Below, one piece after another: positions 7,926 through 24,653 of a DNA stretch of 37,988 nucleotides. The stretch covers positions 1 to 37,988 of the forward strand of contig NCCT01000014.1 in assembly GCA_002279795.1 (NCBI GenBank). Reading direction: 5' to 3'. Under the pieces are notes generated by a model, which was not told the DNA's origin, made no database searches, and saw only the letters and a list, made by a program, of their open reading frames with translations. Position numbers and translations under genes: made by a program. Each line of letters starts with the position of its first letter. The first letter of the stretch is position 1. This stretch comes from Hydrogenophilales bacterium 12-61-10. Lineage in GTDB: Bacteria > Pseudomonadota > Gammaproteobacteria > Burkholderiales > Thiobacillaceae.

Positions 7926-8258
7926 TCAATCGTCGAGCGTCAGGTCGGCGGCGAGCTGGGCGAGATTGCGGGTGTGTTGTGCCTCGGCGCGCTGGAATGC
8001 CGCGATCAGCCGTTCGGCATCTTTGGTCAGGCGGCTGCCAGCCGGTCCGCTTTCCACCAGCGGAATTTGCCACGCGCTGTTCATCGCATCCACCGCGTCC
8101 CACGCTGCCTTGTAGCTCATCTTCATCGCCTTGGCGGCTTTGGAAATGGAGCCGGTTTCCCGGATGCGCTGCAGCAGTTCGATGCGGCCGCGGCCGAGGA
8201 AGTTTTTGCCGTCGAGCGTAAGCCAGAAACGGCCGTCGACCTTGAGGTGGGAATGCAT
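7926..8258 (-). CDS. ModE-type winged-helix DNA-binding protein (DNA-binding domain only)
   Basis: 110 aa from the ATG at 8258; codons further upstream do not resemble the family. The N-terminal two thirds match the LysR-like winged helix of ModE: GRGRIELLQRIRETGSISKA, then a recognition helix with MSYKAAWDAVDAMN, then LTKDAERL. It ends soon after this domain, so the molybdate-binding (TOBE) domains of full ModE (about 260 aa) are absent; single-domain ModE relatives are common in proteobacteria. Its target is unknown. It is encoded near a molybdoenzyme operon, but direct control of nar is only a guess. AGTGTA at 8265-8270 reads TACACT on this strand, a -10-like hexamer only 6 bp from the ATG, so the mRNA may have little or no leader. 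Confidence 0.82.
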   Translation of the reverse strand: MHSHLKVDGRFWLTLDGKNFLGRGRIELLQRIRETGSISKAAKAMKMSYKAAWDAVDAMNSAWQIPLVESGPAGSRLTKDAERLIAAFQRAEAQHTRNLAQLAADLTLDD

Positions 8259-8274
8259 CGGCCGAGTGTAGCAA

Positions 8275-8287
8275 ACGCAGCTTGCGT
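8275..8287. promoter_or_regulatory. Short inverted repeat between modE-like and DUF302 genes
   Basis: ACGCA-GCT-TGCGT forms a perfect 5-bp inverted repeat with a 3-bp spacer in the 80-bp divergent region. It lies 16 bp from the ModE-like start and could be an operator for that regulator. It may also be chance in GC-rich DNA. Confidence 0.2.
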
Positions 8288-8338
8288 GCCCGCGCGAAAA
8301 TGGCCGAAAATCAAGCCTCCTGTCCACGAAAGAGCGCC

Positions 8339-8797
8339 ATGAAAAAAATCATCACTGCGTGCGTCCTGTTCGGCCTGTCGATGCCTGCGCTGGCGACCGA
8401 CGCGTATTCCGTTCTGTTCAAAACCCAGGGCGATTTTTCGTTCGTGCGCGATTCGCTGCAGGTCGCGATCGAAGGCAAGGGGCTGGTGATCAATCACACC
8501 AACCTGATCGCCGGCATGCTGGAGCGCACCGGCAAGGATCTGGGCGCGACCCAACAGATTTATACGAATGGCGAGCAGTTCGAGTTTTGCAGTGCGACGA
8601 TTTCGCGCGCGATGATGGAAGCCGACCCGCATGCGATCACGATGTGCCCCTACATCGTGTCGGTGTACACGATACCCGGCGACGCCACCGTGTATGTCGC
8701 TTACCGCAAGCCCGGCCCCACGCACAACCCGGCGCTGCAAAAGGCGCTGGATCAGGTTGAAACGCTGTTGACCGAGATCATTGAAGAAGCGCTGTAA
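8339..8797 (+). CDS. Exported DUF302 domain protein
   Basis: 152 aa from the ATG at 8339, preceded by GAAAGAG. The N-terminus is a clean Sec signal peptide: MKK, a hydrophobic stretch, and cleavage after ALA around residue 19. The rest fits DUF302: a small alpha/beta fold with FVRDSLQVAIEGKGLVI near the start, then two cysteines (FCSA and TMCPY) and the conserved C-terminal TVYVAYRKPG. DUF302 proteins are widespread in sulfur-oxidising bacteria, and no biochemical role is established. It is divergent from the ModE-like gene and convergent with nnrS, so it is probably a single-gene unit. Confidence 0.8.
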   Translation: MKKIITACVLFGLSMPALATDAYSVLFKTQGDFSFVRDSLQVAIEGKGLVINHTNLIAGMLERTGKDLGATQQIYTNGEQFEFCSATISRAMMEADPHAITMCPYIVSVYTIPGDATVYVAYRKPGPTHNPALQKALDQVETLLTEIIEEAL

Positions 8798-8821: not shown

Positions 8822-10018
8822 TCAGCCCGGTTTGCCGTCCACCCTGGGGCGCAGCAGCATGGCTGCGTAGAACGCCACAAACAGGCCGAAGGCCAGCATC
8901 CACAGCAAGCCGGCGACCACGGTGCCGGCCAGATAATCGGCCGAGACCAGCAGCGGCAGCGCGATGCGGCTCAACGCGGCGCAGTTGACCGCCATGAAGG
9001 CCAGCGTCATCAGCGGCGCGGGTTCCAGCATGCGGCCAGTGTGGCCGAGCGAAACCCGCGCCATCATGCCCAAGGTCAACGCGCCGATGGCGCCCGCCGT
9101 GAAGGCATGCAGCGCGCTGCTGGCCGACACGTTCAGGCCGATCGCAGTCAGCGCCATCAGGGCGAAGCCGAGCACGATCCAGGCATAGCCCAGGTGCAAG
9201 ATCCACAACAAGGGCACCGACCACAGCTTGCCGGTGTACCAGCCGGCCAGCCGCACCCCATGCATGACCGCAGCGACAGCGGCAAACAGCGCAGTGACCG
9301 GAGAAACTGGCGCCACCAGTGCCGCGCCCAGTGCGCCGAGGGTGGCGACTGGCAGCAGGCGTTCGAGTAGCGGCCAGCGGCTGGCGCGGCTGCCGAGCTT
9401 GTTGTCGGTAAAGCTGGGAATCACCCGTCCGCCCATCACCATCATCATCGCTACCACCGCATAGACCGCAAGGTGCAACCCGGTTCGCGCCGTGCCGCTG
9501 GTCCAGCCCAGCGCATCGGCATGCACCAGCGCATTGGCGCAGGCGAGCGCCAGCAGCATGAGGGGAAACGGATAGTTGTGAAACTGTTTGGCCTTGAGGA
9601 TGGGCACGGCCAGCACCGCCGCCAGAACCGGCAGGAAAGCCAGATCGAGCAGCGCCACCAGCCCGACCGGCAGACCCGGAATCAGGAAGCCCAGCCGTCC
9701 CGCCAGCCACAGCAGGAACAGCGCTGCCAGCGGCGTGCCGGAAGGCATGCGCAGGCCGGTCCAGTTTTGCGTGGCGGTGAGCAGGAAACCGGCGATGACC
9801 GCCACGGCGAAGCCGAACAGCATTTCATGGCCGTGCCAGATGGCAGGCGGCAGTTCGGCGGGAATCAGGCTGCCGTGCAGCACTACCATCCACAAGCCCA
9901 TCAGCAGCAACGCAAAAAGGCCGGCGGACAGGAAAAACGGGCGGAAGCCGAGCGCGAAGGGCGCCCAGCCGGTGACGGGCGGGCGGGTGTGCAAGTCTTT
10001 GATGGGCAGGACGGCCAT
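8822..10018 (-). CDS. nnrS: NnrS family membrane protein
   Basis: 398 aa, almost entirely hydrophobic, with about 12 predicted membrane helices. The N-terminal GFRPFFLSAG and the WHGHEMLFGFA segment followed by GFLLTATQNW are hallmarks of NnrS; VIPSFTDNKLG is the second conserved block. NnrS is a haem- and copper-containing inner-membrane protein linked to denitrification and protection from nitrosative stress. Its exact reaction is not settled. It is the last gene of the nar transcription unit, 33 bp after the DsrC-like gene, which fits NO stress arising downstream of nitrate respiration. No terminator is visible in the 24 bp separating it from the convergent DUF302 gene. Confidence 0.9.
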   Translation of the reverse strand: MAVLPIKDLHTRPPVTGWAPFALGFRPFFLSAGLFALLLMGLWMVVLHGSLIPAELPPAIWHGHEMLFGFAVAVIAGFLLTATQNWTGLRMPSGTPLAALFLLWLAGRLGFLIPGLPVGLVALLDLAFLPVLAAVLAVPILKAKQFHNYPFPLMLLALACANALVHADALGWTSGTARTGLHLAVYAVVAMMMVMGGRVIPSFTDNKLGSRASRWPLLERLLPVATLGALGAALVAPVSPVTALFAAVAAVMHGVRLAGWYTGKLWSVPLLWILHLGYAWIVLGFALMALTAIGLNVSASSALHAFTAGAIGALTLGMMARVSLGHTGRMLEPAPLMTLAFMAVNCAALSRIALPLLVSADYLAGTVVAGLLWMLAFGLFVAFYAAMLLRPRVDGKPG

Positions 10019-10051
10019 GGTTGTTCCGATGCGTGAGGATTCGAAGCGGGT

Positions 10052-10369
10052 TCAGCCCGTGCTCCAGGCGCGCGGCCGCCGCATGCCGGCGATCTTGCAG
10101 GCCTGTTTCACGTAGCCGTAGGGGTAGAGCAGGAACAGTTTTTTCTGTGCTTCCTTGCCGTAGCGCTCGGCCAGGTGCTTGATGACGAAGCGGGCATCGG
10201 CGATGACCTGATGCTCCTCGAAATAGTCGCGCATGAAACGGATCGTGTCCCAGTGGTCGTCGGTGAGCTGGATGTTTTCCTCTTCGGCGAGGGCGCGCGC
10301 CACGTCCTCGTTCCAGTCACCGGGTTCGATCAAATAGCCTTCGGCGTCGCGTTCGGGCAGGGTGCTCAT
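10052..10369 (-). CDS. DsrC/TusE-family protein lacking the terminal cysteine
   Basis: 105 aa, the normal DsrC/TusE length. The fold signature is clear: GYLIEPGDWNEDVA, a central helix-turn region with HWDTIRFMRDYF, and the C-terminal arm YGYVKQACKIAGM. DsrC carries two cysteines 11 residues apart on this arm and moves sulfur as a persulfide or trisulfide; TusE keeps only the last one. Here the first is present (Cys91) but the position of the second is Trp102, and the protein ends WSTG. It therefore cannot form the DsrC disulfide or trisulfide and lacks the Cys used by TusE. It lies 52 bp downstream of the SQR-like gene in the nar operon. The role is unknown: it may be regulatory or a single-thiol carrier. 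Confidence 0.88.
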   Translation of the reverse strand: MSTLPERDAEGYLIEPGDWNEDVARALAEEENIQLTDDHWDTIRFMRDYFEEHQVIADARFVIKHLAERYGKEAQKKLFLLYPYGYVKQACKIAGMRRPRAWSTG

Positions 10370-10421
10370 CGGACTCTCCTGTGTGGTGGGGTGGCTCTAC
10401 ATTCTGACAGGCGGGCGCAGC

Positions 10422-11960
10422 TCAGGTGCCGCCGCCGTGGAACTCGACGCCGGGCTGGCGTTCCGGCAGGTCGGCCACCAGCAGTTCGCGCCGGGTGAGC
10501 GCCATCGCCTCGACCTCGGCGCCACTCAGGCAGGACTTGGCATCGGAGACTGCGGCGGCCAGCAACTCGGCAGCCAGGGCGGCGGGTTCGCGCCCCACCG
10601 ATTGGGCGAGCGCCCGCAGTTCGAGGCAGGGATCCTGCTGCAGGCGGATTTCCAGTGGCTTGCCGCTACCCGCGAGCGTCTGGGGTTGGTTTTGCCCTGT
10701 CAGCACCTGGCTCATCACGCCGGCGATATGGGAGACGACCGAAGCGATCTGGCCCACGGGCTGCTGCCGGATCTTGTTGATGAAATATTTCTCGAAATCG
10801 ATCTTGGCCTGGTGCACCCAGCGCCCCTGGCGCATCCAGTTGATGTCGCGCAGCGGCACCTGCGGCTCGGACAGATAGGCCGCGCCGTCGCGGCCCATGT
10901 CGTTGAGCCATTTGGCGCGCTGCGGCACGTGGCTCGTCAGCGGCGCATCGTGGATCAGCGCGAGTATGTTCTGCACCACGATCGCGCCCGCCTTCGAGAT
11001 CGAATACACCGAGTCGGGCGCGCCCACTGGCACCGGCGTCTTGTCCACGGGCGGTTGCGCCACGCAGGCGCCGAGCGCAAACACGTTAGGGTAGTCGGGA
11101 TTGCGCAGGTATTCGTCGACCACGACCAGCCCGCGCGCGTCGACCAAACCGCTTGCGCTGCGCACAGCGGGCACGCCGCCGAACGCTGGCCAGAACATCG
11201 AATAGGCGAAGGGCAGGGTGTGGGTTTGCTTGTCGTTGCCGGCGGCATCGAGCTCCGTGATATGGAGCGTGTCCTTGTCGATGCGGGTCGTGCGCGCATT
11301 GCAGATGGCGCTGATTTTGGTGTCGACCAGCGCGGCGGTCACTGCGCCGCGGCTGGCGCCTTCGCCGCCGAGTCCGAGGTGGCCGGGCCAAGGCTCGGGC
11401 GTCACCAGGGTGATGCTCACCCGCTCGCGGATGTTACGCCGCTTGAGGTCGGCGTCGATCAGAAACGCATACTCGTAAAGCGGCCCCAGCACGCTGGCGC
11501 CCGGCGCCGCGCCGATCACGACGGGACCGGGGCGGCGCACGAATTCGCGGTAGGCCGCGAGCGCCTGCTCGGCCTGATCGATATGAATGACAGACTGGGT
11601 ATGCTCGGCGAGGCCGGGAATCGCGTCGGACTGGCCGACCACGCCGGTGGCAATCAGCAGGATGTCGTAGAACAGCACGTCGCCGTTATCCAGATCGACC
11701 TGGATGCCGTCGGGCTGGATGCTTGTGACCGCGCTGTGGATGAAGCGGATGCCGCGCGTTTCGAGATAGGGGCCGATCGGGAACGCGATGTCGGATCGTT
11801 CGCGCCAGCCCATCGCGATCCAGGGGTTCGACGGCACGAAGTGAAAATACGGTTTGTTCGACACCACCGTCACTTCGTCGTGCGGGCCCAGTTTGGCTTT
11901 CAGTGCGTAGGCCGCAGACACGCCTGCAATGCCGGCGCCCAGGATGACAACATGCGTCAT
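10422..11960 (-). CDS. Sulfide:quinone-reductase-like FAD-dependent oxidoreductase with C-terminal extension
   Basis: 512 aa from the ATG at 11960, which follows GGAGACTGAA; the frame is open further upstream but does not look coding. Seen: N-terminal FAD dinucleotide fold VVILGAGIAGVSAA, the SQR-like FVPSNPWIAMGWR, a second nucleotide-binding segment VVIGAAPGASVLGPLYEYAF, PAFGGVPAV, FALGACVAQPP, and the membrane-surface segment WVHQAKIDFEKYF near residue 381. In catalytic SQRs the second segment reads GASCFGPAYE and its Cys is redox-active; here it is Val157. Residues about 405-512 are an extra helical tail not found in ordinary SQR (about 430 aa). It lies 26 bp after narI. It could pass electrons from a sulfur or other donor to quinone, but the sequence argues against a normal sulfide active site. 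Confidence 0.82.
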   Translation of the reverse strand: MTHVVILGAGIAGVSAAYALKAKLGPHDEVTVVSNKPYFHFVPSNPWIAMGWRERSDIAFPIGPYLETRGIRFIHSAVTSIQPDGIQVDLDNGDVLFYDILLIATGVVGQSDAIPGLAEHTQSVIHIDQAEQALAAYREFVRRPGPVVIGAAPGASVLGPLYEYAFLIDADLKRRNIRERVSITLVTPEPWPGHLGLGGEGASRGAVTAALVDTKISAICNARTTRIDKDTLHITELDAAGNDKQTHTLPFAYSMFWPAFGGVPAVRSASGLVDARGLVVVDEYLRNPDYPNVFALGACVAQPPVDKTPVPVGAPDSVYSISKAGAIVVQNILALIHDAPLTSHVPQRAKWLNDMGRDGAAYLSEPQVPLRDINWMRQGRWVHQAKIDFEKYFINKIRQQPVGQIASVVSHIAGVMSQVLTGQNQPQTLAGSGKPLEIRLQQDPCLELRALAQSVGREPAALAAELLAAAVSDAKSCLSGAEVEAMALTRRELLVADLPERQPGVEFHGGGT

Positions 11961-11986
11961 TTCAGTCTCCTTGATTGATTTTGAAG

Positions 11987-12670
11987 TCAGCCGCGCGGAC
12001 GCACCAGCTGCCAGGTGCGCACCAGATAGGTCGTGGCGGCAAAACCGCTCCACACATGTACCAGCCGGGTGAACGGGAAGACGAGAAAGATCGTCATGCC
12101 GAGGAACAGATGGGTCTTGTAGATCCAGCCCGCGCCTTCGAGCAGTTCAACCGCGCCGCCACGGAAGGTGACGATGCGCTGCCCCCATTCGGCAAGACGG
12201 ATCATCATGCTGCCGTCCAGATGCTGCGCCGACAACGGGATGGTGGCCAGACCCAGCACCAGCTGCAGCCACAGCAGCAGCAAAATCATGATGTCGCTGG
12301 GCTTCGAGGTGGCGCGGATGCGCGGCTCGGTCAATCGGCGATGCAGCAGCAGGGTCAGTCCGATGAAGGCCAGCACGCCCGCCGTGCCGCCCGACACCAT
12401 GGCCAGAATCTGTTTGGCGCCGGCGCTCATGAAGGGCTCATAGATGAAGTGCGGCGTAAGCATGCCGACGAAGTGGCCAAAGAACAGGAACAGCACGCCG
12501 ATGTGGAACAGGTTGCTGCCCAATCGCAGCTGGCCACGTCGCAACAGCTGCGACGAGTCGCTCTTCCATGTGTACTGCTCACGGTCGAAGCGAATCAGGC
12601 TGCCGAGAAAAAAGACGGACAGGGCGATGTACGGATAAATACCGAACAGGAAATGTTGCGAGTAGGACAT
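11987..12670 (-). CDS. narI: Respiratory nitrate reductase gamma subunit (cytochrome b)
   Basis: 227 aa, 5 predicted membrane helices. It oxidises quinol at the membrane and passes electrons through two haems b to NarH. Ligand pattern seen: His56 and His66 in FHIGVLFLFFGH, and two further His 18 residues apart in THLFLGM and RLVHVWSG. All four match the spacing of the E. coli haem ligands. The start has GAGGAGCC just upstream. It is preceded by narJ (24 bp) and followed by the SQR-like gene. Confidence 0.97.
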   Translation of the reverse strand: MSYSQHFLFGIYPYIALSVFFLGSLIRFDREQYTWKSDSSQLLRRGQLRLGSNLFHIGVLFLFFGHFVGMLTPHFIYEPFMSAGAKQILAMVSGGTAGVLAFIGLTLLLHRRLTEPRIRATSKPSDIMILLLLWLQLVLGLATIPLSAQHLDGSMMIRLAEWGQRIVTFRGGAVELLEGAGWIYKTHLFLGMTIFLVFPFTRLVHVWSGFAATTYLVRTWQLVRPRG

Positions 12671-12694: not shown

Positions 12695-13351
12695 TCAGGC
12701 AGCCGCCTGACGGTGCGATTTCGGCATCTGCACCACCGATACCTGCGGGCCGGGGTTCATCAAGGGTTCGACGCCGTCCACCGACGGCCCGAACAGTTCC
12801 ATCGCCTCGTCCATGTCGCGTACCGGCGGCTCGGCCAGTTCCTGCGCGGACACTGGCGACAAGACTTCCAGCAACTGGAACGCGGTGGCGTAGGGGCTGC
12901 CGTTGGCGTCGAGCTTGCGGCCGATGGTGGCAAGTACGTGCACGGCATCGCCCAATAGTTCGAGCGCTTCGCCGGTCGGCAGCAGCGATAGGAATTCGAG
13001 GAACAGCGGCACGTAGTCCGGCAGTTCCGAGGCGCTGGCATCGAAGTCGTGCTTCCAGTATTCGTTCAGCAGGTCGATCATCGCCGAGCCGCGGTCGCGC
13101 GATTCGCCGTGAATGTGTTCGAACAGATGCAGCGAATGTGAGGGATTGCGGTCGAAGGTGGCGACGTGGTTTTCCTGCAGGGCAATGAGGCTGGCTTCAC
13201 GCAGCTGCGCGAACAGCGGCGCCAGTTTGGTGTGCGCATCGCCGTTGAAATCGGCCTCTGACGCCAATGCCTCTTCCAGCTCAGGCAAGGCCGACAGCCA
13301 GTCGGATTCCGGGTAGCACAGCAGCAGTGAAATGACTTTGAAGGTTTTCAT
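12695..13351 (-). CDS. narJ: Nitrate reductase assembly chaperone NarJ
   Basis: 218 aa from the ATG at 13351, preceded by AGGAG 7 bp upstream; the frame stays open well into narH but those residues are out-of-frame translation. An all-helical TorD-like chaperone needed for cofactor insertion into NarG. Seen: N-terminal LLLCYPES and the family core NPSHSLHLFEHIHGESRDRG. The final 25 residues form a Pro/Gln-rich tail. It begins 11 bp after the narH stop, so translation is probably coupled. Confidence 0.95.
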   Translation of the reverse strand: MKTFKVISLLLCYPESDWLSALPELEEALASEADFNGDAHTKLAPLFAQLREASLIALQENHVATFDRNPSHSLHLFEHIHGESRDRGSAMIDLLNEYWKHDFDASASELPDYVPLFLEFLSLLPTGEALELLGDAVHVLATIGRKLDANGSPYATAFQLLEVLSPVSAQELAEPPVRDMDEAMELFGPSVDGVEPLMNPGPQVSVVQMPKSHRQAAA

Positions 13352-13362
13352 GTGGTGACTCC

Positions 13363-14910
13363 TTAACCGGTTTTCTTCTTGGCGTGCAGTTGCGACAGGT
13401 CGACCGGCACCGCATTTTTGCGGTTGCCGAACAGCGTGATCTTGGGCGTCACGCCATCCGTGCAGCCGTTTCCGAAGGTGAAGCCGCAGCTCGACTTTTC
13501 CTCGAAGGTGTTGAGCGCTTCTTCGCGATGCCCGGAAGGAATGACGAAACGGTCCTCGTAGTTGGCGATCGCGAGATAGCGGTACATCTCGTCGGCCTGC
13601 GCCGAGGTCAATCCCACCTGGTCGAGCGCGGCGGTATTGGGGATGCCCTCCACCGACTTGCCGCGCATGTAGGCGCGCATCGCCAGCAGGCGGTCGAGCG
13701 CGGTGATCACCGGCTGCTCTTTGCCACCGGTCAACAGGTTGGCCAGATAGGTGATCGGGATGCGCAGCGACTTGGTGTCCGGAATGATGCCGTTCATGCC
13801 CATCTGGCCGGATTCGGCAGCGGACTGGATCGGGGAGAGTGGCGGCACGTACCACACCATCGGCAGCGTGCGGTATTCCGGGTGCAGCGGGAAGGCGATC
13901 TTCCAGTCGATCGCCATCTTGTAGACCGGCGATTTCACCGCCGATTCGAGCCAGGCTTCGGGGATGCCTTCGGCGCGTGCGGCAGCGATCACCACCGGGT
14001 CGTTGGGATCGAGGAAGATCTTCAGCTGCGCTTCGTAGAGTTCCTTTTCGTCGGTCACGCTGGCGGCTTCTTCGATGCGGTCGGCGTCATACAAAATCAC
14101 GCCGAGGTAGCGGATGCGGCCGACGCAGGATTCCGAGCACACGGTCGGCTGGCCTGCTTCGATGCGCGGATAGCAGAAAATGCACTTTTCAGCTTTGCCT
14201 GATTTCCAGTTGAAATAGATCTTCTTGTAAGGACAGCCGGAGATGCACATGCGCCAGCCGCGGCACTTGTCCTGGTCGACCAGCACGATGCCGTCTTCCT
14301 CGCGCTTGTAGATCGATCCGGAAGGGCAGGAGGCGACGCAGGTCGGATTGAGGCAGTGCTCGCACAGGCGCGGCAGATACATCAGGAAGGTGTTCTCGAA
14401 CGTCGAGTGCATTTCCTTCTGCACGTTGTCGAAGTTCTTGTCGCGACTGCGCGAGGCAAACTCGCCGCCGAGGTCGTCTTCCCAGTTGGGGCCCCAGTTG
14501 ATCTTGTCCATTTTCTTGCCGGTGATGGCGGAAATCGGGCGCGCGGTCGGCGGCGTTTCCGACAGCGGCGCTTTCTGCAGATGCTGGTAGTCGTAGGTAA
14601 ATGGCTCGTAGTAGTCGTCGATTTCCGGCATGTTGGGGTTGCTGAAAATGTTGGCGAGGATTTTCAGCTTGCTGCCTTGGCGCGGTTCGATTTTGCCGTC
14701 GCCCTTGAGCTTCCAGCCGCCGTTCCAGATGTCCTGGTTTTCCCACTGCTTGGGATAGCCGATGCCGGGCTTCGATTCGACGTTGTTGAACCACGCGTAT
14801 TCCATGCCTTCGCGCGAGGTCCACACGTTCTTGCAGGTGATCGAACAGGTATGACAGCCGATGCACTTGTCGAGGTTCAGCACCATCGCAATTTGAGCAC
14901 GTACTTTCAT
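13363..14910 (-). CDS. narH: Respiratory nitrate reductase beta subunit (iron-sulfur)
   Basis: 515 aa, full length. It carries electrons from NarI haem to NarG. Four cluster motifs are visible: CIGCHTCSITC (Cys16/19/22/26), CEHCLNPTCVASC, CRGWRMCISGC, and CIFCYPR with CSESC. The Trp in the third group replaces a Cys and gives the [3Fe-4S] cluster typical of NarH. A strong Shine-Dalgarno (AAGGAG) lies before the ATG. The 117 bp between narG and narH is unusually long for this operon and holds two hairpins, listed separately. Confidence 0.97.
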   Translation of the reverse strand: MKVRAQIAMVLNLDKCIGCHTCSITCKNVWTSREGMEYAWFNNVESKPGIGYPKQWENQDIWNGGWKLKGDGKIEPRQGSKLKILANIFSNPNMPEIDDYYEPFTYDYQHLQKAPLSETPPTARPISAITGKKMDKINWGPNWEDDLGGEFASRSRDKNFDNVQKEMHSTFENTFLMYLPRLCEHCLNPTCVASCPSGSIYKREEDGIVLVDQDKCRGWRMCISGCPYKKIYFNWKSGKAEKCIFCYPRIEAGQPTVCSESCVGRIRYLGVILYDADRIEEAASVTDEKELYEAQLKIFLDPNDPVVIAAARAEGIPEAWLESAVKSPVYKMAIDWKIAFPLHPEYRTLPMVWYVPPLSPIQSAAESGQMGMNGIIPDTKSLRIPITYLANLLTGGKEQPVITALDRLLAMRAYMRGKSVEGIPNTAALDQVGLTSAQADEMYRYLAIANYEDRFVIPSGHREEALNTFEEKSSCGFTFGNGCTDGVTPKITLFGNRKNAVPVDLSQLHAKKKTG

Positions 14911-15027: not shown

Positions 15028-18000
15028 TCAGCGCTCGACCAGCGGGCCTTCCATCCAGTCCACCTTTTTCATCTTGCGCACGATCACGTATTCGTCGCGG
15101 TTGGAGCCGACCGTGCCGTAGTAGTTGAAGCCGTACGAAAGCTGCGCGTAGCCGCCGATCATGTGCGTCGGCTTGGTGATGGTGCGTGTCACCGAGTTGT
15201 GGATGCCGCCGCGGAAGCCGCTCACCTCCGCGCCCGGCACGTTGATGATCTTTTCCTGCGCGTGATACATCAGGCACATGCCCTTGGGCACGCGCTGGCT
15301 GACCACGACGCGTGCCGTCAGCGTGCCGTTGACGTTGAACACCTCGACCCAGTCGTTGTCCACCAACCCCGCTTCCTTCGCCTCGATCTCGGACACCCAG
15401 ACGTGGGGGCCGCCGCGCGACAGCGTGAGCATGCGCAGGTTGTCGGTGTAGGTGCTGTGGATGCCCCACTTCTGGTGCGGGGTGATCCAGTTGAGCACCA
15501 GCTCGTGGTTGCCGTTTGGCTTTTTGCCGAGCATCGGTTCAATCGTCTTGGTGTCGACCGGCGGCTTGTAGACGCACAGGCCCTCTCCAAAATCGAGCAT
15601 CCACTGATGATCCTGGTAGAACTGTTGGCGGCCGGTAAGGGTGCGCCATGGAATCAGCTCATGGACGTTGGTGTAGCCGGCGTTGTACGACACGTGCTCC
15701 GATTCCAGCCCCGACCAGGTGGGCGAGGAAATGATCTTGCGCGGCTGCGCCACGACGTCGCGGAAGCGGATCTTGTCGTCCTCGCGCGGGATGGCCAGAT
15801 GCGTGTGGTCGCGCCCGGTGATCTTCGACAACGCTTTCCACGCTTTTACAGCCACCTGGCCGTTGGTTTCCGGTGCCAGCATGAGAATGACTTCGCAGGC
15901 GTCGATGGCCGAGTTGATGTTCGGCAATCCCTTGGCGACCCCTTCCTCAGTGACGGTGTAATTCAGTTCCGCCAGTTGCTTCACTTCGTCTTCGGTGTTC
16001 CAGGCGATGCCCTTGCCGCCGTTGCCGATCTTGGTCATCAAGGGGCCTAAAGCAGTGAACTTTTTGTAGGTGTCGCCGTAGTCGCGCGTGACTACCGTCA
16101 TGGTCGGCATGGTCTTGCCGGGGATGGCATCGACCTCGCCTTTCTTCCAGTCGCGTACCGCCATGCTCTGCCCGAGTTCGGACGGCGTGTCATGCATCAG
16201 TGGCGTCAGGACCAAGTCCTTTTGCGTACCGAGATGGACAGCGGCGATTTCGGAGAACTTCTTGGCGATGGTCTTGTAGATGTCCCAGTCGGACTTCGAT
16301 TCCCACAGCGGCTGCACCGCCTCGCTCAAGGGATGGATGAAGGGATGCATGTCCGAGGTGTTGAGGTCGTCCTTCTCGTACCAGGTGGACGACGGCAGCA
16401 CGATGTCGGAATACAGACACGTGGTGGACATGCGGAAATCCAGCGTCACCAGCAGGTCGAGCTTGCCTTCTGCCCCCTTGTCATGCCACACCACTTCCTT
16501 CGGTTTGGCTTCACCGAGCTCGCCCAGATCGGGCCCCAGCACGGCGTTCTGGGTGCCGAGCAGGTACTTGAGGAAATACTCGTGACCCTTGCCCGACGAA
16601 CCCAGCAGATTCGAGCGCCAGACGAACATGTTGCGCGGGAAATTTTTCGGGTTGTCCGGGTCTTCGCAGGCAAACTTCAGCGCGCCGCTCTTTATCTGAT
16701 CGACCGCGTACTTGATGGGGTCGATGCCGGCGGCGTCCGCCGCCTTGGTGATTTCCAGCGGATTGGCGTCGAGTTGCGGCGCCGACGGCAGCCAGCCCAT
16801 GCGCTCGGCGCGCACGTTGAAGTCGATCAGCCGGTAGTCGCCCAAGTCCTTGTTCGCGGTCGGCGAGAGAATCTCGGATGCCGCCAGCTTCTCGTGGCGC
16901 CACTGGCTGGTGTGGGCGTAGAAATAGGAGGTGGAGTTCATCTGGCGCGGCGGGCGATGCCAGTCGAGGCCGAACGCCAGCGGCGCCCAGCCGGTCTGCG
17001 GCCGCAGCTTTTCCTGGCCGACGTAGTGTGCCCAGCCACCACCCGACTGGCCGATGCAGCCGCACATCGTCAACAGGTTGATGATGCCGCGGTAGATCAT
17101 GTCGTTGTGGTACCAGTGGTTCAGCGCCGCACCGAGGATGACCATGGACTTGCCGTGGGTCTTGTCGGCGTTGTCGGCGAATTCGCGCGCCACCGTGATG
17201 ATGTCGGCGCGCGGCACGCCGCAGTGCTTCTCGGCCCAGGCCGGGGTGTAGGGCACGTCGTCGTCGTAGCTGGTGGGAATGTTCGGCCCGCCGAGGCCGC
17301 GGTCGACGCCGTAGTTGGCCAGCGTGAGGTCGTAGACGGTGGCGACGCGCACGTCCTGGCCGCCGACGCTGATCACCTTGACCGGCAGGTTGCGGGAAAG
17401 CAGTTCATTGTGATCGCCGCCGAAGTAGGGCAGCGCCACCTCGACCACCTCGTCGTGGCTGCCCAGCAAGGTCAGCTGCGGCTTCACGTCTTTGCCGGAA
17501 TAGCCGTCGCGCATCTCGAGGTTCCAGGCGCCTGACTGGCCCCAGCGGAAACCGATCGAGCCGTTGGGCGCGACCAGGTAGCCGGTGTTCTCGTCGATCA
17601 TCACCGTCTTCCACTCGGGGTTGTTGTCCTGCCCCATGTTGCCGCTGAGGTCGGAGGCGCGCAGATAGCGGTCGGCGATCAACGTGCCTTCGTGCTCCTT
17701 CAGCATCACCAGCATCGGCATGTCGTTGTACTGACGGCAGTAGGAATCGAAGTACTCGCTGCGGTTCTTGACGTGGAATTCGGACAGGATGACGTGGCCC
17801 ATCGCCAGCGCCAGCGCGGCGTCGGTGCCCTGCTTGGGGGCGAGCCAGATGTCGCCGAACTTGACCATTTCGCCGTAGTCGGAGGATACCGCCACCGTCT
17901 TGGTGCCCTTGTAGCGCACCTCGGTGTAGAAGTGGGCGTCCGGCGTGCGGGTCTGCGGCACGTTGGAGCCCCACACCATCAGGTAGGTCGAGTTGTACCA

Positions 18001-18726
18001 GTCGGCCGATTCCGGCACATCGGTCTGCTCGCCCCACACCTGCGGGCTTGCGGGCGGCAGGTCGCAGTACCAGTCGTAAAAGGAGCCGCAGACGCCGCCG
18101 ATCAGGGACATGTAGCGCGAGCCTGCCGCGTAGCTCACCATCGACATGGCGGGAATCGGCGAAAAGCCGAAGATGCGGTCGGGACCGAAGTCCTTGATGG
18201 TGGTGACGTTGGCGGCGGCGATCATTTCCGTCACCTCGTCCCACTTGGCGCGCACGAAGCCGCCCTGGCCGCGAATCGACTTGTAGCGTTTGGCCTTCTC
18301 GGGGTTCTGGCTGATCGAGCGCCAGGCTTCCACCGGGTCCATCGACTTCCGCGCCTCGCGCCACATTTCCATCAGGCGGCCGCGGATCAGCGGATATTTC
18401 ACCCGCTGCGCCGAATACACATACCAGGAATACGATGCGCCGCGCGGGCAGCCGCGCGGCTCGTGGTTGGGCAAGTCGGCGCGGGTGCGCGGGTAGTCGG
18501 TCTGCTGGATTTCCCAGGTGATCAAACCGTTTTTCACGAAGATTTTCCAGCTGCATGAACCGGTGCAGTTCACCCCGTGGGTGGAACGCACGATCTTGTC
18601 GCTCTGCCAGCGGCTGCGGTAGGCATTCTCCCAGCTGCGATCTTCGTTGCTGACGACGCCGTGGCCGTTGGAAAATTCGCTGACGGTCTTCTTGAAGAAG
18701 GTCAGGCGGTCGATGAAGTGACTCAT
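15028..18726 (-). CDS. narG: Respiratory nitrate reductase alpha subunit (molybdenum, catalytic)
   Basis: 1232 aa, close to the E. coli length (1247). It reduces nitrate to nitrite at a Mo-bis-MGD centre on the cytoplasmic side of the membrane. The start at 18726 follows AAAGGAGC; in-frame codons upstream come from repeat-like intergenic DNA. FS0 cluster ligands His50, Cys54, Cys58 and Cys93 (HGVNCTGSCSW and RGCPRGASYSW) match E. coli NarG, as does the Mo-ligand Asp in PESADWYNS and GSNVPQTRTPDAHF. The protein has no twin-Arg leader, as expected for membrane-bound cytoplasmic Nar. Expression is probably driven from the promoter before narK1. Confidence 0.98.
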   Translation of the reverse strand: MSHFIDRLTFFKKTVSEFSNGHGVVSNEDRSWENAYRSRWQSDKIVRSTHGVNCTGSCSWKIFVKNGLITWEIQQTDYPRTRADLPNHEPRGCPRGASYSWYVYSAQRVKYPLIRGRLMEMWREARKSMDPVEAWRSISQNPEKAKRYKSIRGQGGFVRAKWDEVTEMIAAANVTTIKDFGPDRIFGFSPIPAMSMVSYAAGSRYMSLIGGVCGSFYDWYCDLPPASPQVWGEQTDVPESADWYNSTYLMVWGSNVPQTRTPDAHFYTEVRYKGTKTVAVSSDYGEMVKFGDIWLAPKQGTDAALALAMGHVILSEFHVKNRSEYFDSYCRQYNDMPMLVMLKEHEGTLIADRYLRASDLSGNMGQDNNPEWKTVMIDENTGYLVAPNGSIGFRWGQSGAWNLEMRDGYSGKDVKPQLTLLGSHDEVVEVALPYFGGDHNELLSRNLPVKVISVGGQDVRVATVYDLTLANYGVDRGLGGPNIPTSYDDDVPYTPAWAEKHCGVPRADIITVAREFADNADKTHGKSMVILGAALNHWYHNDMIYRGIINLLTMCGCIGQSGGGWAHYVGQEKLRPQTGWAPLAFGLDWHRPPRQMNSTSYFYAHTSQWRHEKLAASEILSPTANKDLGDYRLIDFNVRAERMGWLPSAPQLDANPLEITKAADAAGIDPIKYAVDQIKSGALKFACEDPDNPKNFPRNMFVWRSNLLGSSGKGHEYFLKYLLGTQNAVLGPDLGELGEAKPKEVVWHDKGAEGKLDLLVTLDFRMSTTCLYSDIVLPSSTWYEKDDLNTSDMHPFIHPLSEAVQPLWESKSDWDIYKTIAKKFSEIAAVHLGTQKDLVLTPLMHDTPSELGQSMAVRDWKKGEVDAIPGKTMPTMTVVTRDYGDTYKKFTALGPLMTKIGNGGKGIAWNTEDEVKQLAELNYTVTEEGVAKGLPNINSAIDACEVILMLAPETNGQVAVKAWKALSKITGRDHTHLAIPREDDKIRFRDVVAQPRKIISSPTWSGLESEHVSYNAGYTNVHELIPWRTLTGRQQFYQDHQWMLDFGEGLCVYKPPVDTKTIEPMLGKKPNGNHELVLNWITPHQKWGIHSTYTDNLRMLTLSRGGPHVWVSEIEAKEAGLVDNDWVEVFNVNGTLTARVVVSQRVPKGMCLMYHAQEKIINVPGAEVSGFRGGIHNSVTRTITKPTHMIGGYAQLSYGFNYYGTVGSNRDEYVIVRKMKKVDWMEGPLVER

Positions 18727-18773
18727 TGTTTTTGCTCCTTTAGTCGCGGTGAGCGGTGAGGGGTGAACAGTGA

Positions 18774-18814
18774 GCGGTGATGGGACGGCGGTTTTTCCGC
18801 TTCCCATTCACCGC
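18774..18814 (-). repeat. Long imperfect hairpin and direct repeats in the narK2-narG gap
   Basis: The arms 18774-18791 and 18797-18814 pair over about 17 bp with two single-base bulges around a 5-nt loop (AAAAA in the nar mRNA). No T-run follows it, so it is not an intrinsic terminator. The same gap has GTGAGCGGTGA twice, at 18749-18759 and 18770-18780, and further GTGA/GCGG-rich variants. It may stabilise or mark a processing site between the transporter and reductase parts of the mRNA (inference). Confidence 0.5.
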
Positions 18815-18821
18815 TTCCCGC

Positions 18822-20432
18822 TCACGGATTTCTAATCTCCGAACCCTTGCGCAGGTAAAACCACCAGTTCAGCACCAGGCAGACGGCGTAGAAGATGGCG
18901 AAACCGTACATGGCGTATTCAGGGGTGCCGGCCTTGATCTGGCCTTTTATGACTTCGGGGGCGATGAAGGACCCGTAGGCGGCGACGGCCGAGGTCCAGC
19001 CCAGTACCGGGCCCGCCTGCACGCGGTCGAAGATCACGCCGACGGTGCGGAAGGTGGAACCGTTGCCGATGCCGGTGGCGGCGAACAGCACAACGAAGAC
19101 CCAAAGGAACTGGGTGAAGAACACTTCGGGGGTGGCCGAGTGATAGGCCTGCATCATGATCCAGCCGGCGTAGACGGACGCCACCACCATTACCGCAGAG
19201 ATGATCTGGGTGACGATGGAGCCACCGACCTTGTCAGAAATCCAGCCGCCTACGGGGCGGATCAGCGCGCCGACGAAGGGGCCGATCCAGGCGTAGGTCA
19301 GCGCGGAGGGCGCATTGGGATTCTTGGCGTGAACCCAGAGCCCGGTGGCGGCATCCAGCGTGTGGGTTTCGCCGAAGATCACCGTGATCGACAGCGGCAG
19401 CGCCATCGAAAAGCCGATGAAGGAACCGAAGGTGACCAGATACAGCGCCGTCATCGACCAAGTGTGCTTGTTGCTGAAAATGGCGAACTGCTTGGCGATG
19501 TTTTCCTTCATCGCGCCAAAGGCGGCCAGCTTCATGATGATCAATGTGCTGACGATGATGAGTGGCATCGTCAGCCACATGTTGAGCACGCCCAGGCCGG
19601 TGGGGGCGGGCAAGTAAAGATAGAGGCCGCCGATGGCCGGGACAAAGGCCAGGGTGTAGAGCCAGGTGACCTTGATGAAGGCGAACAGCGTGCCGCCGAT
19701 GTCCGGCGACACCGGCAGCAGGTTATTCATGCCGAACCAGGCGATGATCGCCAGCGGCACCAGCGACAGCACCCAGGTGAAGCCGGCGTTCTGGATAAAG
19801 GTGGGGGTGCCGGCGACAATCTTGCCGAGGATCCAGCCACTGTCTTTTACCAGCGTCATCGGTTCGCCGCCCAGTGTGCCGAACACGCTGACCGTCATCA
19901 CCAGTGGGATCAGGATCTGCATGGTGGTGACGCCGAAGTTGCCGAGCCCCGCATTGATCCCCAGCGCGGTGCCCTGCAGGCGCTTGGGGAAAAAGGTGCT
20001 GATGTTAGACATCGAACTGGCGAAGTTGCCGCCGCCGACGCCCGACCACAAAGCCATCAACTGAAACGACCACAACGGCCAGTCGGGATGCTGCAACACC
20101 ACGCCGGTGCCGATGGCGGGCGCCAGCAGCATGGCGGTGGTGAGGAAGATGACGTTGCGCCCACCGGCCAGTCGGATGAAGAAGGACGACGGGATACGCA
20201 TCGTCGCCCCGGCCAGGCCCGAAATCGCCGTCAGCGTGAACAGCTCATCCTTGCTGAAGGGAAATCCCAGGTTGGACATCTGCACCGTGATGATTCCCCA
20301 CATCAGCCACACGGCAAAGCCGCACAGCAGCGCAGGGACTGAAATCCACAGATTGCGGTAGGCAATTTTCTTGCCGGTCGATTCCCAGAATGTCGGGTCT
20401 TCCGGATTCCATTCCTTGATATGGGCAGGCAT
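18822..20432 (-). CDS. narK2: Nitrate/nitrite antiporter (NarK2 type, MFS)
   Basis: 536 aa, 12 or more membrane helices. The start at 20432 follows GAGGAAG. Nitrate signature segments are clear: GGGNFASSMSNISTFFP with GINAGLGNFGV in the first half, and GIGNGSTFRTVGVIFDR in the second. The conserved Arg of the substrate site lies in ATMRIPSSFF. The longer, E. coli NarK-like sequence suggests nitrate/nitrite exchange, exporting the nitrite made by NarG. Naming it the second NarK follows the usual narK1-narK2 order. It lies 95 bp upstream of narG and 58 bp after narK1. Confidence 0.93.
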   Translation of the reverse strand: MPAHIKEWNPEDPTFWESTGKKIAYRNLWISVPALLCGFAVWLMWGIITVQMSNLGFPFSKDELFTLTAISGLAGATMRIPSSFFIRLAGGRNVIFLTTAMLLAPAIGTGVVLQHPDWPLWSFQLMALWSGVGGGNFASSMSNISTFFPKRLQGTALGINAGLGNFGVTTMQILIPLVMTVSVFGTLGGEPMTLVKDSGWILGKIVAGTPTFIQNAGFTWVLSLVPLAIIAWFGMNNLLPVSPDIGGTLFAFIKVTWLYTLAFVPAIGGLYLYLPAPTGLGVLNMWLTMPLIIVSTLIIMKLAAFGAMKENIAKQFAIFSNKHTWSMTALYLVTFGSFIGFSMALPLSITVIFGETHTLDAATGLWVHAKNPNAPSALTYAWIGPFVGALIRPVGGWISDKVGGSIVTQIISAVMVVASVYAGWIMMQAYHSATPEVFFTQFLWVFVVLFAATGIGNGSTFRTVGVIFDRVQAGPVLGWTSAVAAYGSFIAPEVIKGQIKAGTPEYAMYGFAIFYAVCLVLNWWFYLRKGSEIRNP

Positions 20433-20457
20433 GGCGACTTCCTCTTTTAAGTTGACC

Positions 20458-20480
20458 AAATAAGCCCGGCACCGCCAGGC
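20458..20480 (-). terminator. Weak terminator-like hairpin between narK1 and narK2
   Basis: On the minus strand GCCTGGC-GGT-GCCGGGC forms a 7-bp stem (one G-U pair) followed by TTATTT. It lies 11 bp after the narK1 stop. The stem is good, but the U-tract is short and interrupted, so it would at most attenuate. Confidence 0.35.
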
Positions 20481-20490
20481 CTGTGCATTG

Positions 20491-21756
20491 CTATTCCATA
20501 CGGTCTGCAGCCAGAGCCCGCTTCAGTTCCCGTTCCGCATCCATCGGACGGACTTCCGTCCAGTACATCCACATCAACGACACCCACACCACGCCGAACA
20601 TCAGCATGAACGCCGATGAACGAATCCCGGTCAGGTCTACCAGCACGCCGAACAGGATCGGCATCAGGAAGCCGCCCAGGCCGCCGGCCAGCCCCACCAC
20701 GCCGGAAATCACGCCGATGTTGTCGGGGTAGTCGTCCGAGATGTACTTGAAGACCGAGGCCTTGCCGAGGGCGAACACCACGCCGAGGCTGAACAAAATC
20801 ACGGTGAACAGCGTCGCGTTGAGGCCGAAGTGGAAGGTGAACGGGCCGTTGACGGTCTGGATCGTGATGTCGCTCTGCGGGTAGGACAGGAAGAACAGGC
20901 AGACCAGCGCAATCCACAGCACCCACCAGGTCATGGTGTGGGCGCCGAACTTGTCGGAGAAATAGCCGCCGACCGCCCGCAATAGCCCACCGGGGATGCT
21001 GAAGGCGGCAGCCAGCAAGGCGGCGGACTTGAGGTCGAAACCGTATTCGCTGATGTAGTACTTGGTCATCCACAGCGCCAGCGCCACATAGCCGCCGAAC
21101 ACGATCGAGTAGTACTGGCTGAGTCGCCACACCTTCGGGTCCTTGAAGGCGGCCAGCTGCTCGCGCAGGGTGACGTGCTTGCCCACCGTGTGGCCAGGGT
21201 CGCTATAGGTGAAGAACCAGAACACGATGGCAGTCACGGCCATCAACACTGCATAGACCTTGGGCACCATCGTCCAGCCGTAGCCCACCACGATGATGGG
21301 CGCGAGTAGCTTGGTGACGGCCGCCCCGGTGTTGCCAGCGCCGAAAATGCCCATCGCCAGCCCCTGACGCTGCTTGGGAAACCAGCGCGCGCAATAGGCG
21401 ATCCCCACCGTGAATGAGCCGCCCGCCATGCCGACGAACAGCCCGGTCACCAGAAAGTGCCAGTACTGCGTTGCCCACGAAATCATCCAGATCGGAATGA
21501 CCGTGGCGAGCATCAGGACGAAGAACACGATGCGGCCGCCGAACTTGTCGGTCCACATCCCCAGCGGTACGCGGATAAGAGAACCGGTCAGCACCGGCGT
21601 AGCGATCAGGATGCCGAACTCGGTCTCGTTCAGGCCCAGTTGCTGCTTGATCGGTACGCCGATGACGGCGAACATCATCCAGATCATGAAGCACACCGTG
21701 AACGCCAGTGTGCTCATGATGACGACCGACCATGCCTTGTATTGTTGCGTTGCCAT
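20491..21756 (-). CDS. narK1: Nitrate transporter (NarK1 type, MFS)
   Basis: 421 aa, 12 predicted membrane helices. The start at 21756 is preceded by a GGGGTGGA Shine-Dalgarno; the frame continues upstream without family similarity. Seen: N-terminal MATQQYKAWSVVIMSTLAF, the MFS loop GMWTDKFGGR, the nitrate signature GMAGGSFTVGIAYCARWFP with GIFGAGNTGAAV, and a matching C-terminal GVVGLAGGLGGF. This shorter form belongs to the NarK1 group, generally viewed as nitrate/H+ symporters that start nitrate uptake. It is the first gene of the nar operon, and its promoter region is shared with narX. Confidence 0.93.
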   Translation of the reverse strand: MATQQYKAWSVVIMSTLAFTVCFMIWMMFAVIGVPIKQQLGLNETEFGILIATPVLTGSLIRVPLGMWTDKFGGRIVFFVLMLATVIPIWMISWATQYWHFLVTGLFVGMAGGSFTVGIAYCARWFPKQRQGLAMGIFGAGNTGAAVTKLLAPIIVVGYGWTMVPKVYAVLMAVTAIVFWFFTYSDPGHTVGKHVTLREQLAAFKDPKVWRLSQYYSIVFGGYVALALWMTKYYISEYGFDLKSAALLAAAFSIPGGLLRAVGGYFSDKFGAHTMTWWVLWIALVCLFFLSYPQSDITIQTVNGPFTFHFGLNATLFTVILFSLGVVFALGKASVFKYISDDYPDNIGVISGVVGLAGGLGGFLMPILFGVLVDLTGIRSSAFMLMFGVVWVSLMWMYWTEVRPMDAERELKRALAADRME

Positions 21757-21860
21757 GTTCCACCCCGATGTGCCGGTGAGATAAAAAGACCTTGGTGTGT
21801 TTTTTACGCCATCGAAGGCGTGGTCGCCAGAGGTGGCGCAGGATGAAAAAACCATCGAAC

Positions 21861-21968: not shown

Positions 21969-22056
21969 TGAACTGCCATGTCGGACATTGGGTAGGTTAG
22001 GCTTGAAGCAGGGCAAATGAAGCCGGTTGCGTGAAGCGACCGCATGGAGAAATCGG

Positions 22057-23997: not shown

Positions 23998-24653
23998 ACC
24001 CACTCGAACCCCAGACCCTCCTGATCGTCGACGACCATCCGCTGTTTCGCAAAGGAGTGATCCAGCTGATCCAGGCCACGCCCGAATTCCGCCTGGTGGG
24101 CGAGGCGCCCAGCGGCAAGGAAGGCATGGCGCTCGCGCGCAGCCTGCTCCCCGACATGATCCTGCTCGACCTCAACATGAAGGACATGAACGGGATCGAG
24201 GTACTGAAAACGCTGAAGGACGAAGGACTCGACGCACGCATCATCATGCTGACCGTGTCCGACCACGCAGACGACCTGATGGCCGCGCTGCAGGCTGGCG
24301 CCGACGGCTACCTGCTGAAGGACATGGAGCCGGAAGACCTGATGCAGCAGCTGGTCGAGGCGGCGCACGGCAAGATCACCATCAGCGAGCGCCTCACGCA
24401 ATTGCTGGTGGCGTCGCTGCGCGAGAAAAGCCGCCCCCCGAGTCCTGCCGAAGCCGGGCTGACCGAGCAGGAAAACCGCATCCTCGAACACCTGATCGAC
24501 GGCAAGAGCAACAAGCTGATTGCCCGCGACATGGACATCGCCGAAGGCACGGTGAAAGTCCACGTCAAGCACCTGTTGAAGAAACTCAATCTGCGCTCGC
24601 GCGTGGAAGCGGCGGTGTGGGCGGATCGCTGCCGCCGCCAGAACAAGACCTGA
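23994..24653 (+). CDS. narL: Nitrate/nitrite response regulator NarL
   Basis: 219 aa. Receiver domain with [11 protein letters not shown] (Asp13/14), phospho-acceptor Asp59 in ILLDLNM and the conserved Lys in YLLKDM; then a LuxR-type helix-turn-helix near residues 155-215. The recognition region [15 protein letters not shown] and SRVEAAVW are nearly the same as in E. coli NarL, so TACYYMT-type heptamers should be its target. Such sites occur in the region between narK1 and narX. It overlaps the narX stop by 4 bp. Confidence 0.96.

Follow-up and report, generated by a model that had tools for sequence, protein, structure and literature searches.

Nitrate reductase operons of Thiobacillus-like bacteria encode a conserved flavoprotein related to sulfide:quinone reductase but devoid of its catalytic cysteines

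Background

In a stretch of 37,988 nt from Hydrogenophilales bacterium 12-61-10 (contig NCCT01000014.1 of assembly GCA_002279795.1), analysed here over its full length and referred to as the window, the respiratory nitrate reductase gene narI is followed on the same strand by genes for a flavoprotein of the sulfide:quinone reductase (SQR) fold, termed SQRL, for a protein of the DsrC family, termed DsrCL, and for NnrS. This arrangement raises the question of which role relatives of sulfur-oxidation proteins play in a nitrate reductase (nar) operon. The original prediction, made from this locus, regarded the three genes as an extension of the operon, noted altered active sites in both sulfur-family proteins and proposed a dedicated accessory module that might link the sulfur redox state to nitrate respiration. 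To our knowledge, the helpers of NarGHI that are already known are NarJ and the general cofactor machinery. A transcriptome paper on Thiobacillus denitrificans from 2006 reportedly may list a nar-linked SQR-like gene. A search of literature titles and abstract openings, which leaves an earlier mention possible, gave no indication of a nar operon containing an SQR-like or a DsrC-like gene, and the locus tags Tbd1406-1408 occurred in none of the texts. The narH gene of T. denitrificans is Tbd_1404 according to the accessible part of PMC3753534, which also reports mutants of this bacterium obtained by insertion; the SQRL gene would then be located at about Tbd_1407. The accessible part of PMC11963766 contains nothing on SQRL or DsrCL genes.

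The SQRL protein and its C-terminal domain

The four genes were located on the minus strand in the predicted arrangement, that is narI (11987-12670; TIGR00351, E = 8.2e-86; PF02665, E = 4.9e-76), the SQRL gene (10422-11960), the DsrCL gene (10052-10369) and nnrS (8822-10018; PF05940, E = 2.9e-115), the last and loosely attached gene of the string, with intergenic gaps of 26 bp, 52 bp and 33 bp, respectively. The deduced SQRL protein comprises 512 amino acids (aa), and its residues 2-400 align with the SQR of A. ferrooxidans, the best match among the sequences of the PDB (3kpk; phmmer, E = 1.6e-106). An AlphaFold2 (AF2) model computed with 23 orthologs likewise displayed the SQR fold (Foldseek to 3t31, E = 6.0e-44), with a mean predicted local distance difference test (pLDDT) value of 69 and low values over much of the region past residue 346. 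The glycines G8, G10 and G13 of the motif GAGIAG are invariant in alignment A1, and on the basis of this motif SQRL is predicted to bind flavin adenine dinucleotide (FAD). No NCBIfam cut-off is reached by the protein, and those that it passes in Pfam belong to general flavoprotein families. As regards the C-terminal membrane and quinone region of SQR, the similarity of SQRL stops near residue 400, and the AF2 model is poor there; SQRL may be membrane-associated.

The three catalytic cysteines of SQR are missing from SQRL, in agreement with the altered active site noted in the original prediction. The residues I125, V157 and W351 occupy the places of Cys128, Cys160 and Cys356, and none of these cysteines is present in any of 33 SQRL sequences, whereas each of the 21 ordinary SQRs compared from the same family of bacteria has all three. 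This comparison contains two identical SQRL sequences and one relative without the C-terminal domain described below (L048); an ordinary SQR with a frame broken near the third cysteine (L052) and an SQRL cut by a contig end (L147) were left out. Tryptophan is fixed at the place of Cys356 in 33 of 33 sequences, and His194, the counterpart of His198 of SQR, is retained in all of them. The only cysteine that is invariant across SQRL is C299 (47 of 47 sequences, three loci having been fetched twice). An ordinary SQR with all three cysteines is also encoded in the window's own genome (L226). In a tree of 54 sequences SQRL forms one side of a branch with a support of 100/100. The ratio of nonsynonymous to synonymous substitution rates (dN/dS) was 0.04-0.19 for the whole gene in eight pairs, and 0.15-0.68 for the looser linker of residues 400-436. 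As judged from these ratios, SQRL is under purifying selection and not a decaying SQR. Mobile carriers of SQRL were sought as well and dismissed: viral contigs contained no relative, and none of 27 matching plasmid records covered 80% of the query, the identity among the 20 plasmid matches listed being at most 46.4% with ends at residue 399-400.

Past residue 400, the usual SQR tail gives way in SQRL to the variable linker, which is followed by a conserved domain, termed EXT, with a length of about 76 residues. EXT spans residues ~437-512 (10425-10652, minus strand; alignments A2 and A4), its C-terminal tail reads LPERQPGVEFHGGGT, and the members end mostly in LPE(R/N/A)QPGVEF..GGT. A Pfam search with 21 members revealed no family matched by more than one of them (best E = 0.022; five stray families with one member each), the best match among PDB sequences had an E value of 0.44, and a stand-alone copy gave no Pfam match; these are sequence-profile comparisons, in which HMMER drops most matches above E = 0.1. 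EXT is the most novel part of the system. An impression by eye that EXT might be a ribbon-helix-helix domain was set aside, as no family of that type appeared among the Pfam and PDB sequence matches.

The EXT profile matched 27 of 399 genomes in a sample of the order, including 17 strong matches (E <= 1e-12). The weak matches in the other ten genomes (E = 4e-9 to 1e-4; family f28 and genome G272) were kept out of the strong set, and the f28 loci L098, L100, L101 and L102 lie in other contexts; two of these (L098 and L100) consist of small proteins with a weak EXT-like match among other genes, with a dcd-like gene nearby as recognized by eye. Stand-alone EXT genes with frames of 109-125 aa were identified 3' of narI and a gene of the PpiC type in three genomes of family f33 (L094, L095, L097). 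Four of the five genomes of this family contain an EXT match, the fourth being that of G272 at a contig end. At the level of the class, three of 369 genomes matched: the window's genome, genome G674, in which SQRL follows narI and a PpiC-type gene (L159), and one with a weak match. The occurrence of EXT 3' of narI, as an independent gene in some genomes and as part of a flavoprotein in others, suggests that this domain joins SQRL to Nar as a putative docking part. A degenerate EXT remnant was observed at 9684-9931 of locus L090, with neither SQRL nor nar, before intact DsrCL and nnrS genes.

Conservation of SQRL in nar operons

Among 117 genomes of the window's family, SQRL with at least 51% identity was counted in 43, as read by eye from a match list in which ordinary SQRs showed 40-50% identity and ended near residue 400. 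A scan of contigs from named genomes with the EXT tail provided 50 loci, a number that includes L159, added in place of the spurious L158, which turned out to be the antisense of a tRNA-synthetase-like gene; these loci overlap in species with the genome set denoted by G numbers. The hosts are mostly members of the genus Thiobacillus, including T. thioparus DSM 505 and T. denitrificans RG, along with Sulfuriferula multivorans and metagenome-assembled genomes. In all 46 loci with sequence upstream of SQRL, narI was detected in the same orientation and no more than 2.5 kb upstream of it, which places the neighbourhood of narI and SQRL beyond chance; the other four begin inside SQRL at a contig end. 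The adjacency extends over several families and one further order, and the conservation with nar in other genomes on which the original prediction depended was found for SQRL. The PpiC-type gene stands between narI and SQRL in nine of the 50 loci, which are those placed outside the window's family; the PpiC domain was tested for the protein of L087, and no match to a gene of this type was found within the window.

A same-strand gene of the DsrC family accompanies SQRL in 36 of the 50 loci, the one in L143 being of the cysteine-free kind described below, and the remaining 14 have none, some of them being cut by contig ends. The nnrS gene often comes next, yet in some loci of Thiobacillus it is kilobases distant (~7 kb in the case of L116), and tblastn detected none beside SQRL in loci of other families, where L159 gave a weak match on the opposite strand only. 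Of the genomes with a strong EXT match, 15 of 17 also contain narG, compared with 129 of 399 in the order sample (hypergeometric P = 1.7e-6); the 15 include G080 with its EXT remnant and G160, in which narG is not adjacent. Another strong EXT genome, G248, has narI at the locus and no narG match. In the NarG clade nearest to the window (at least 81% identity), ten of 12 genomes are EXT-positive; the remaining two are G495 and G092, and the narG match of G092 is partial.

The state of the EXT tail was compared with the type of the adjacent Nar in 44 distinct SQRL loci with EXT, which had been collected from the family by a whole-protein search and not by the tail. The motif LPE.QPG is kept in 40 of 40 loci beside the usual Nar and in neither of the two loci beside a divergent narGHJI (L039 and L044); it is also kept in two further loci without any nar gene left on the contig. 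The association was noticed post hoc and, with kinship ignored, has a Fisher P value of 0.0012. Three distant SQRL sequences (L045-L047, 51-54% identity) beside the usual Nar keep the motif, so general divergence is not the cause of the tail loss. The motif is also absent from L096, whose host genome has a narG of the divergent type. This pattern fits a tail that may bind something specific to one Nar type. In genome G053 (L039 and L172), the divergent narGHJI (NarG 61% and NarJ 39% identical to those of the window) is surrounded by genes for NarX, NarL, NarK1, NarK2, SQRL and DsrCL that match their counterparts in the window at 73-84%, and we read this locus as one in which the enzyme genes narGHJI were probably exchanged in place; L044 represents a second SQRL beside the divergent nar type. 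Two further peculiarities of nar loci were observed: NarI has an identity of 64-67% in L029, L032, L033, L037 and L038, compared with about 90% in other loci, with narJ and SQRL being of the usual kind, and L258 (contig 37 of G114) contains a tandem pair of nar operons of different types on one strand.

DsrC-family proteins of nar operons

The DsrCL protein belongs to the DsrC family according to PF04358 (E = 1.5e-31), passes the NCBIfam cut-off for TusE/DsrC (TIGR03342) and yielded a helical AF2 model with a mean pLDDT of 84.9. Its C-terminal arm has the form YVKQACKI(A/S)GM(R/K)RPRAWSTG, ending in the window in RPRAWSTG. The upstream cysteine C91 is kept in the window and invariant in alignment A3 (17 sequences), and the penultimate, sulfur-binding cysteine of DsrC is replaced by W102. 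The tail PRAWSTG occurs in 40 of 43 nar-adjacent DsrC sequences, with three loci fetched twice. DsrCL thus shows the reverse of the pattern of TusE, in which the penultimate cysteine is kept and the upstream one usually replaced. In DsrC of A. vinosum, the penultimate cysteine alone binds sulfur and its mutation abolishes binding, as stated in the accessible part of PMC3397948. By that measure, DsrCL would be incapable of acting as a sulfur carrier in the manner of DsrC or TusE.

A search with the DsrCL tail pattern gave matches at 45 places in 40 of the 399 genomes of the order sample, with one match for the reversed control. Of 20 places viewed with their context, 17 hold a DsrCL and three do not, and three of the 17 are near nar (L212, L218 and L223). 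Moreover, the nar-linked copies form no group of their own within DsrCL (six changes). Accordingly, DsrCL is a broad family that is not specific to nar. Most genomes of the window's genus contain at least two DsrCL-like matches, and the second copy lies beside genes for a LysR regulator and an HPP-family membrane protein in seven of nine loci (L161-L164, L167, L168 and L173), the families having been tested for L161 (1224-2308 there); L165 and L166 lack these neighbours. HPP proteins can transport nitrite. In G028, a DsrCL-type gene is positioned between a molybdoprotein gene and NarXL-NarK-like genes. As side observations, a further DsrC-like stretch (44% identity to DsrCL) is present at 6587-6886 of L162, flanked by the second DsrCL copy on one side and by the HPP gene on the other, and the window's genome (G000, 3.0 Mb) gave ten DsrC-family matches, six of which were read and have one or two C-terminal cysteines.

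In operons whose NarG is divergent (61-68% identity), another DsrC-family gene is often present 3' of narI; its product has the tail T(K/R)GEH and neither cysteine. Of 24 such loci examined, two end before narI; among the 22 with narI in view, 14 contain the cysteine-free DsrC (L175, L251-L257, L259, L261, L263, L266, L267 and L044), two contain DsrCL, and six gave neither by this search. In L175 one gene intervenes between narI and the cysteine-free gene. The set comprises 15 sequences, including that of L041, where the operon is of the usual type and the gene follows SQRL. Outside the window's family, 65 of the 129 narG-positive genomes were searched and gave nine strong matches (E <= 1e-43), which are profile scores of sequences that were not read. 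Five of these share the strand of narG and follow it at a distance of 3.0-3.6 kb (G136, G488, G220, G438 and G160), one is on another contig, with narG near the end of its own (G195), and three are elsewhere (G198, G429 and G425). In the DsrC tree the cysteine-free group forms one side of one branch and DsrCL one side of another, with long branches and an unsettled bootstrap. Taken together, DsrC-family proteins without the sulfur-carrying cysteine probably joined nar operons at least twice.

Organization and transcription signals of the nar locus

The minus-strand gene order of the window is narK1, narK2, narG, narH, narJ, narI, SQRL, DsrCL and nnrS, so that narG, narH, narJ and narI form a nitrate reductase operon on one strand in the expected order. 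The narJ gene (12695-13351, a frame of 218 aa between narH and narI) was named by its position and has same-position matches in nar loci; narH (13363-14910, 515 aa) was identified by sequence and position and is matched in the nar loci reaching that far. For narG (15028-18807), the start codon is probably near 18726, and a query of 1232 aa matched 79 of the 117 family genomes with E <= 1e-150, in part as partial matches. Two nitrate/nitrite transporter genes, of the narK2 type (18822-20459; TIGR00886, E = 3e-78) and of the narK1 type (20491-21855; E = 2.1e-61), both scored below the cut-off of the model. Divergently oriented on the plus strand are genes for a NarX-like sensor kinase (22027-23997; HAMP, HisKA_3 and HATPase domains) and a NarL-like response regulator (~24000-24653; Response_reg and GerE domains), which owe their names to position and resemblance. 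Beyond nnrS, the window encodes a DUF302 protein (8282-8797, plus strand) and a protein with a ModE-like repressor domain (7926-8327, minus strand; below the cut-off of its model).

A scan for sigma-70-type sites revealed nothing promoter-like in the stretch from narI through SQRL and DsrCL to nnrS, and no minus-strand terminator-like site was detected between these genes. Five terminator-like sites were found in comparison with 3.8 expected, including one at the narJ/narI junction and two within nnrS. These data make co-transcription of narI, SQRL, DsrCL and nnrS likely. A search for FNR-type sites gave 15 with at most two mismatches in the window, compared with 7.6 expected and with a count of 15 reached in two of 100 shuffles; none was perfect and none was located in the gap between narK1 and narX, and the result was set aside.

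Discussion

The reading that we prefer, tentatively and with somewhat less than even confidence, is that SQRL is an accessory dedicated to one clade of NarGHI enzymes and acts as a redox-gated factor of their maturation or activity, not as a sulfide oxidase, with EXT as the docking part and DsrCL as a separate addition. SQRL would have been derived from a sulfide:quinone reductase, keeping the FAD-binding fold and losing the sulfide and polysulfide chemistry together with the usual tail. EXT with its C-terminal tail would bind a cytoplasmic part of Nar or a maturation intermediate, and the membrane-placed flavoprotein part might report or relay the redox state of quinone or FAD. DsrCL would represent a separate, lineage-specific adaptor of the DsrC fold with a fixed C-terminal arm, recruited to nar in Thiobacillus-like bacteria, and the cysteine-free DsrC relative may likewise have been recruited to the other Nar type. 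EXT is viewed as the docking part because it stands alone at the same operon position and because its end is altered in both cases with the other Nar type; a maturation or activity factor is favoured on account of the NarJ and PpiC-type neighbours, the occurrence of EXT alone in one family and the loss of the residues for sulfide chemistry.

Several observations weigh against this proposal. The argument from the tail is founded on two loci with a divergent Nar, and the AF2 model of EXT shows helices only, at low confidence. Common descent probably explains a good part of the linkage between SQRL and nar, most of which belongs to one NarG clade. The deepest-branching SQRL (L096 in G160) has EXT, and the 14 kb retrieved from its 20-kb contig are free of nar genes; the SQRL gene there adjoins nrdD/nrdG-like genes (anaerobic ribonucleotide reductase, recognized by eye), and the narG of this genome is located elsewhere. 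In G064, L048 encodes a cysteine-less relative that has no EXT and is not located near nar. Moreover, EXT is absent from most of the 129 genomes with narG in the sample of the order, and this rarity indicates that SQRL is not required for Nar generally.

The main rival, which we consider rather improbable, is an electron-entry device in which SQRL passes electrons from a donor other than sulfide, such as NAD(P)H in the manner of a type II NADH dehydrogenase (NDH-2) or a small thiol, to quinone or NarI. The SQR/NDH-2 fold and the invariant N-terminal FAD-binding glycines agree with this function, and a precedent is given by NrcN, a nar-linked type-II-like flavoenzyme, together with the two-hybrid contact of NrcE and NarI reported in the accessible part of PMC7694296. 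However, three nar operons encode EXT unattached to a flavoprotein, SQRL revealed no NAD site, although no search was aimed at one, and C299 as the only invariant cysteine leaves no conserved cysteine pair for thiol chemistry. It is unlikely that SQRL and DsrCL are sensors of the state of quinone, sulfane sulfur or nitric oxide (NO) that control nar expression, with EXT binding DNA. Such a regulator would agree with the strand-helix-helix pattern seen by eye in alignment A4, which resembles that of ribbon-helix-helix proteins, and with the location of DsrCL-type genes near LysR, NarXL-like and MarR-like genes (the last by eye in L207, L212, L217, L222 and L224, of which only L212 was tested), but no DNA-binding family occurred among the Pfam strays and PDB sequence matches of EXT, its low-confidence model lacks the strand, the exposed positions of which vary, and NarXL-like genes are already there. 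Electron entry, sensing and maturation could not be distinguished with the data presented here.

That SQRL is a passive passenger, carried by descent in one operon without a role in nitrate respiration, appears quite unlikely: the concentration of most cases in one NarG clade and the two cysteine-less relatives off nar (L096 and L048) would be expected of a passenger, yet SQRL stays beside narI where narGHJI is divergent (L039 and L044) and has an altered tail in just those two loci, EXT occurs as a stand-alone gene at the same position, and the dN/dS values of 0.04-0.19 point to constraint. We regard it as very unlikely that SQRL, with an altered mechanism, still oxidizes sulfide or polysulfide and provides a direct coupling of sulfide to Nar. 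The histidine His194 is retained throughout, and the hosts include Thiobacillus and Sulfuriferula, which are known sulfur oxidisers; against this stand the loss of Cys128, Cys160 and Cys356, with tryptophan fixed at the third, and the ordinary three-cysteine SQRs encoded in the same bacterial family and in the window's own genome.

Returning to the accessory role preferred for SQRL, the dedicated module proposed in the original prediction is supported for this conserved, nar-linked protein and weakened as regards DsrCL and NnrS as fixed members. The postulated link between sulfur redox state and nitrate respiration is weakened by the absence of the SQR cysteines and of the sulfur-carrying cysteine of DsrC. 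The view of SQRL and DsrCL as a unit is weakened by the 14 loci without a DsrC gene and the many DsrCL-type proteins away from nar, and the distances and absences of nnrS described above speak against NnrS as a member. A broader generalization, possible but on the whole doubtful, is that nar operons of Burkholderiales repeatedly recruited disarmed members of sulfur-oxidation families, namely an SQR that lost its cysteines and gained a docking domain, a DsrC lacking the sulfur carrier and, independently, a DsrC free of cysteines, into an as yet undescribed apparatus that regulates or assembles NarGHI. The binding surfaces of the sulfur proteins would be reused there for purposes other than sulfur chemistry and would co-evolve with the type of Nar.

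If the preferred reading were true, the association of NarGHI with a conserved flavoprotein and with a small domain not described before would point to an unrecognised layer of assembly or control, for example in Thiobacillus. The data also contain a warning for genome annotation: since DsrCL passes the TusE/DsrC cut-off and the best relatives of SQRL are SQRs, both proteins may be taken for a capacity to oxidize sulfur in spite of lacking the residues for this chemistry.

Comparison with known systems

As deduced from the gene products, the system is probably a nar operon with disarmed sulfur-family accessories, in which both protein families are already known and EXT is unmatched. SQRL shares the fold and the FAD motif with SQRs of the A. 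ferrooxidans type over residues 1-400 and has 40-50% identity to the ordinary SQRs of the same bacterial family; it differs from them in the absence of Cys128, Cys160 and Cys356, in the EXT domain that replaces the C-terminal tail and in its location adjacent to nar in nearly all loci. DsrCL resembles DsrC and TusE in family scores above the cut-offs of TIGR03342 and PF04358 and in its helical, DsrC-like model, and the companion encoded in the divergent nar operons differs from DsrC in the lack of both cysteines. The nar-linked peptidyl-prolyl isomerase of the PpiC type, unmatched in the window, is encoded 3' of narI and ahead of SQRL or EXT in those loci that were read from other families. 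A further parallel is offered by Nrc, the nitrate-specific NADH dehydrogenase of Thermus thermophilus: in both cases a flavoprotein is encoded together with nar, and Nrc is used in nitrate respiration according to the accessible part of PMC7694296. Nrc differs from SQRL in being a complex encoded by four genes, NrcDEFN, and composed of other proteins.

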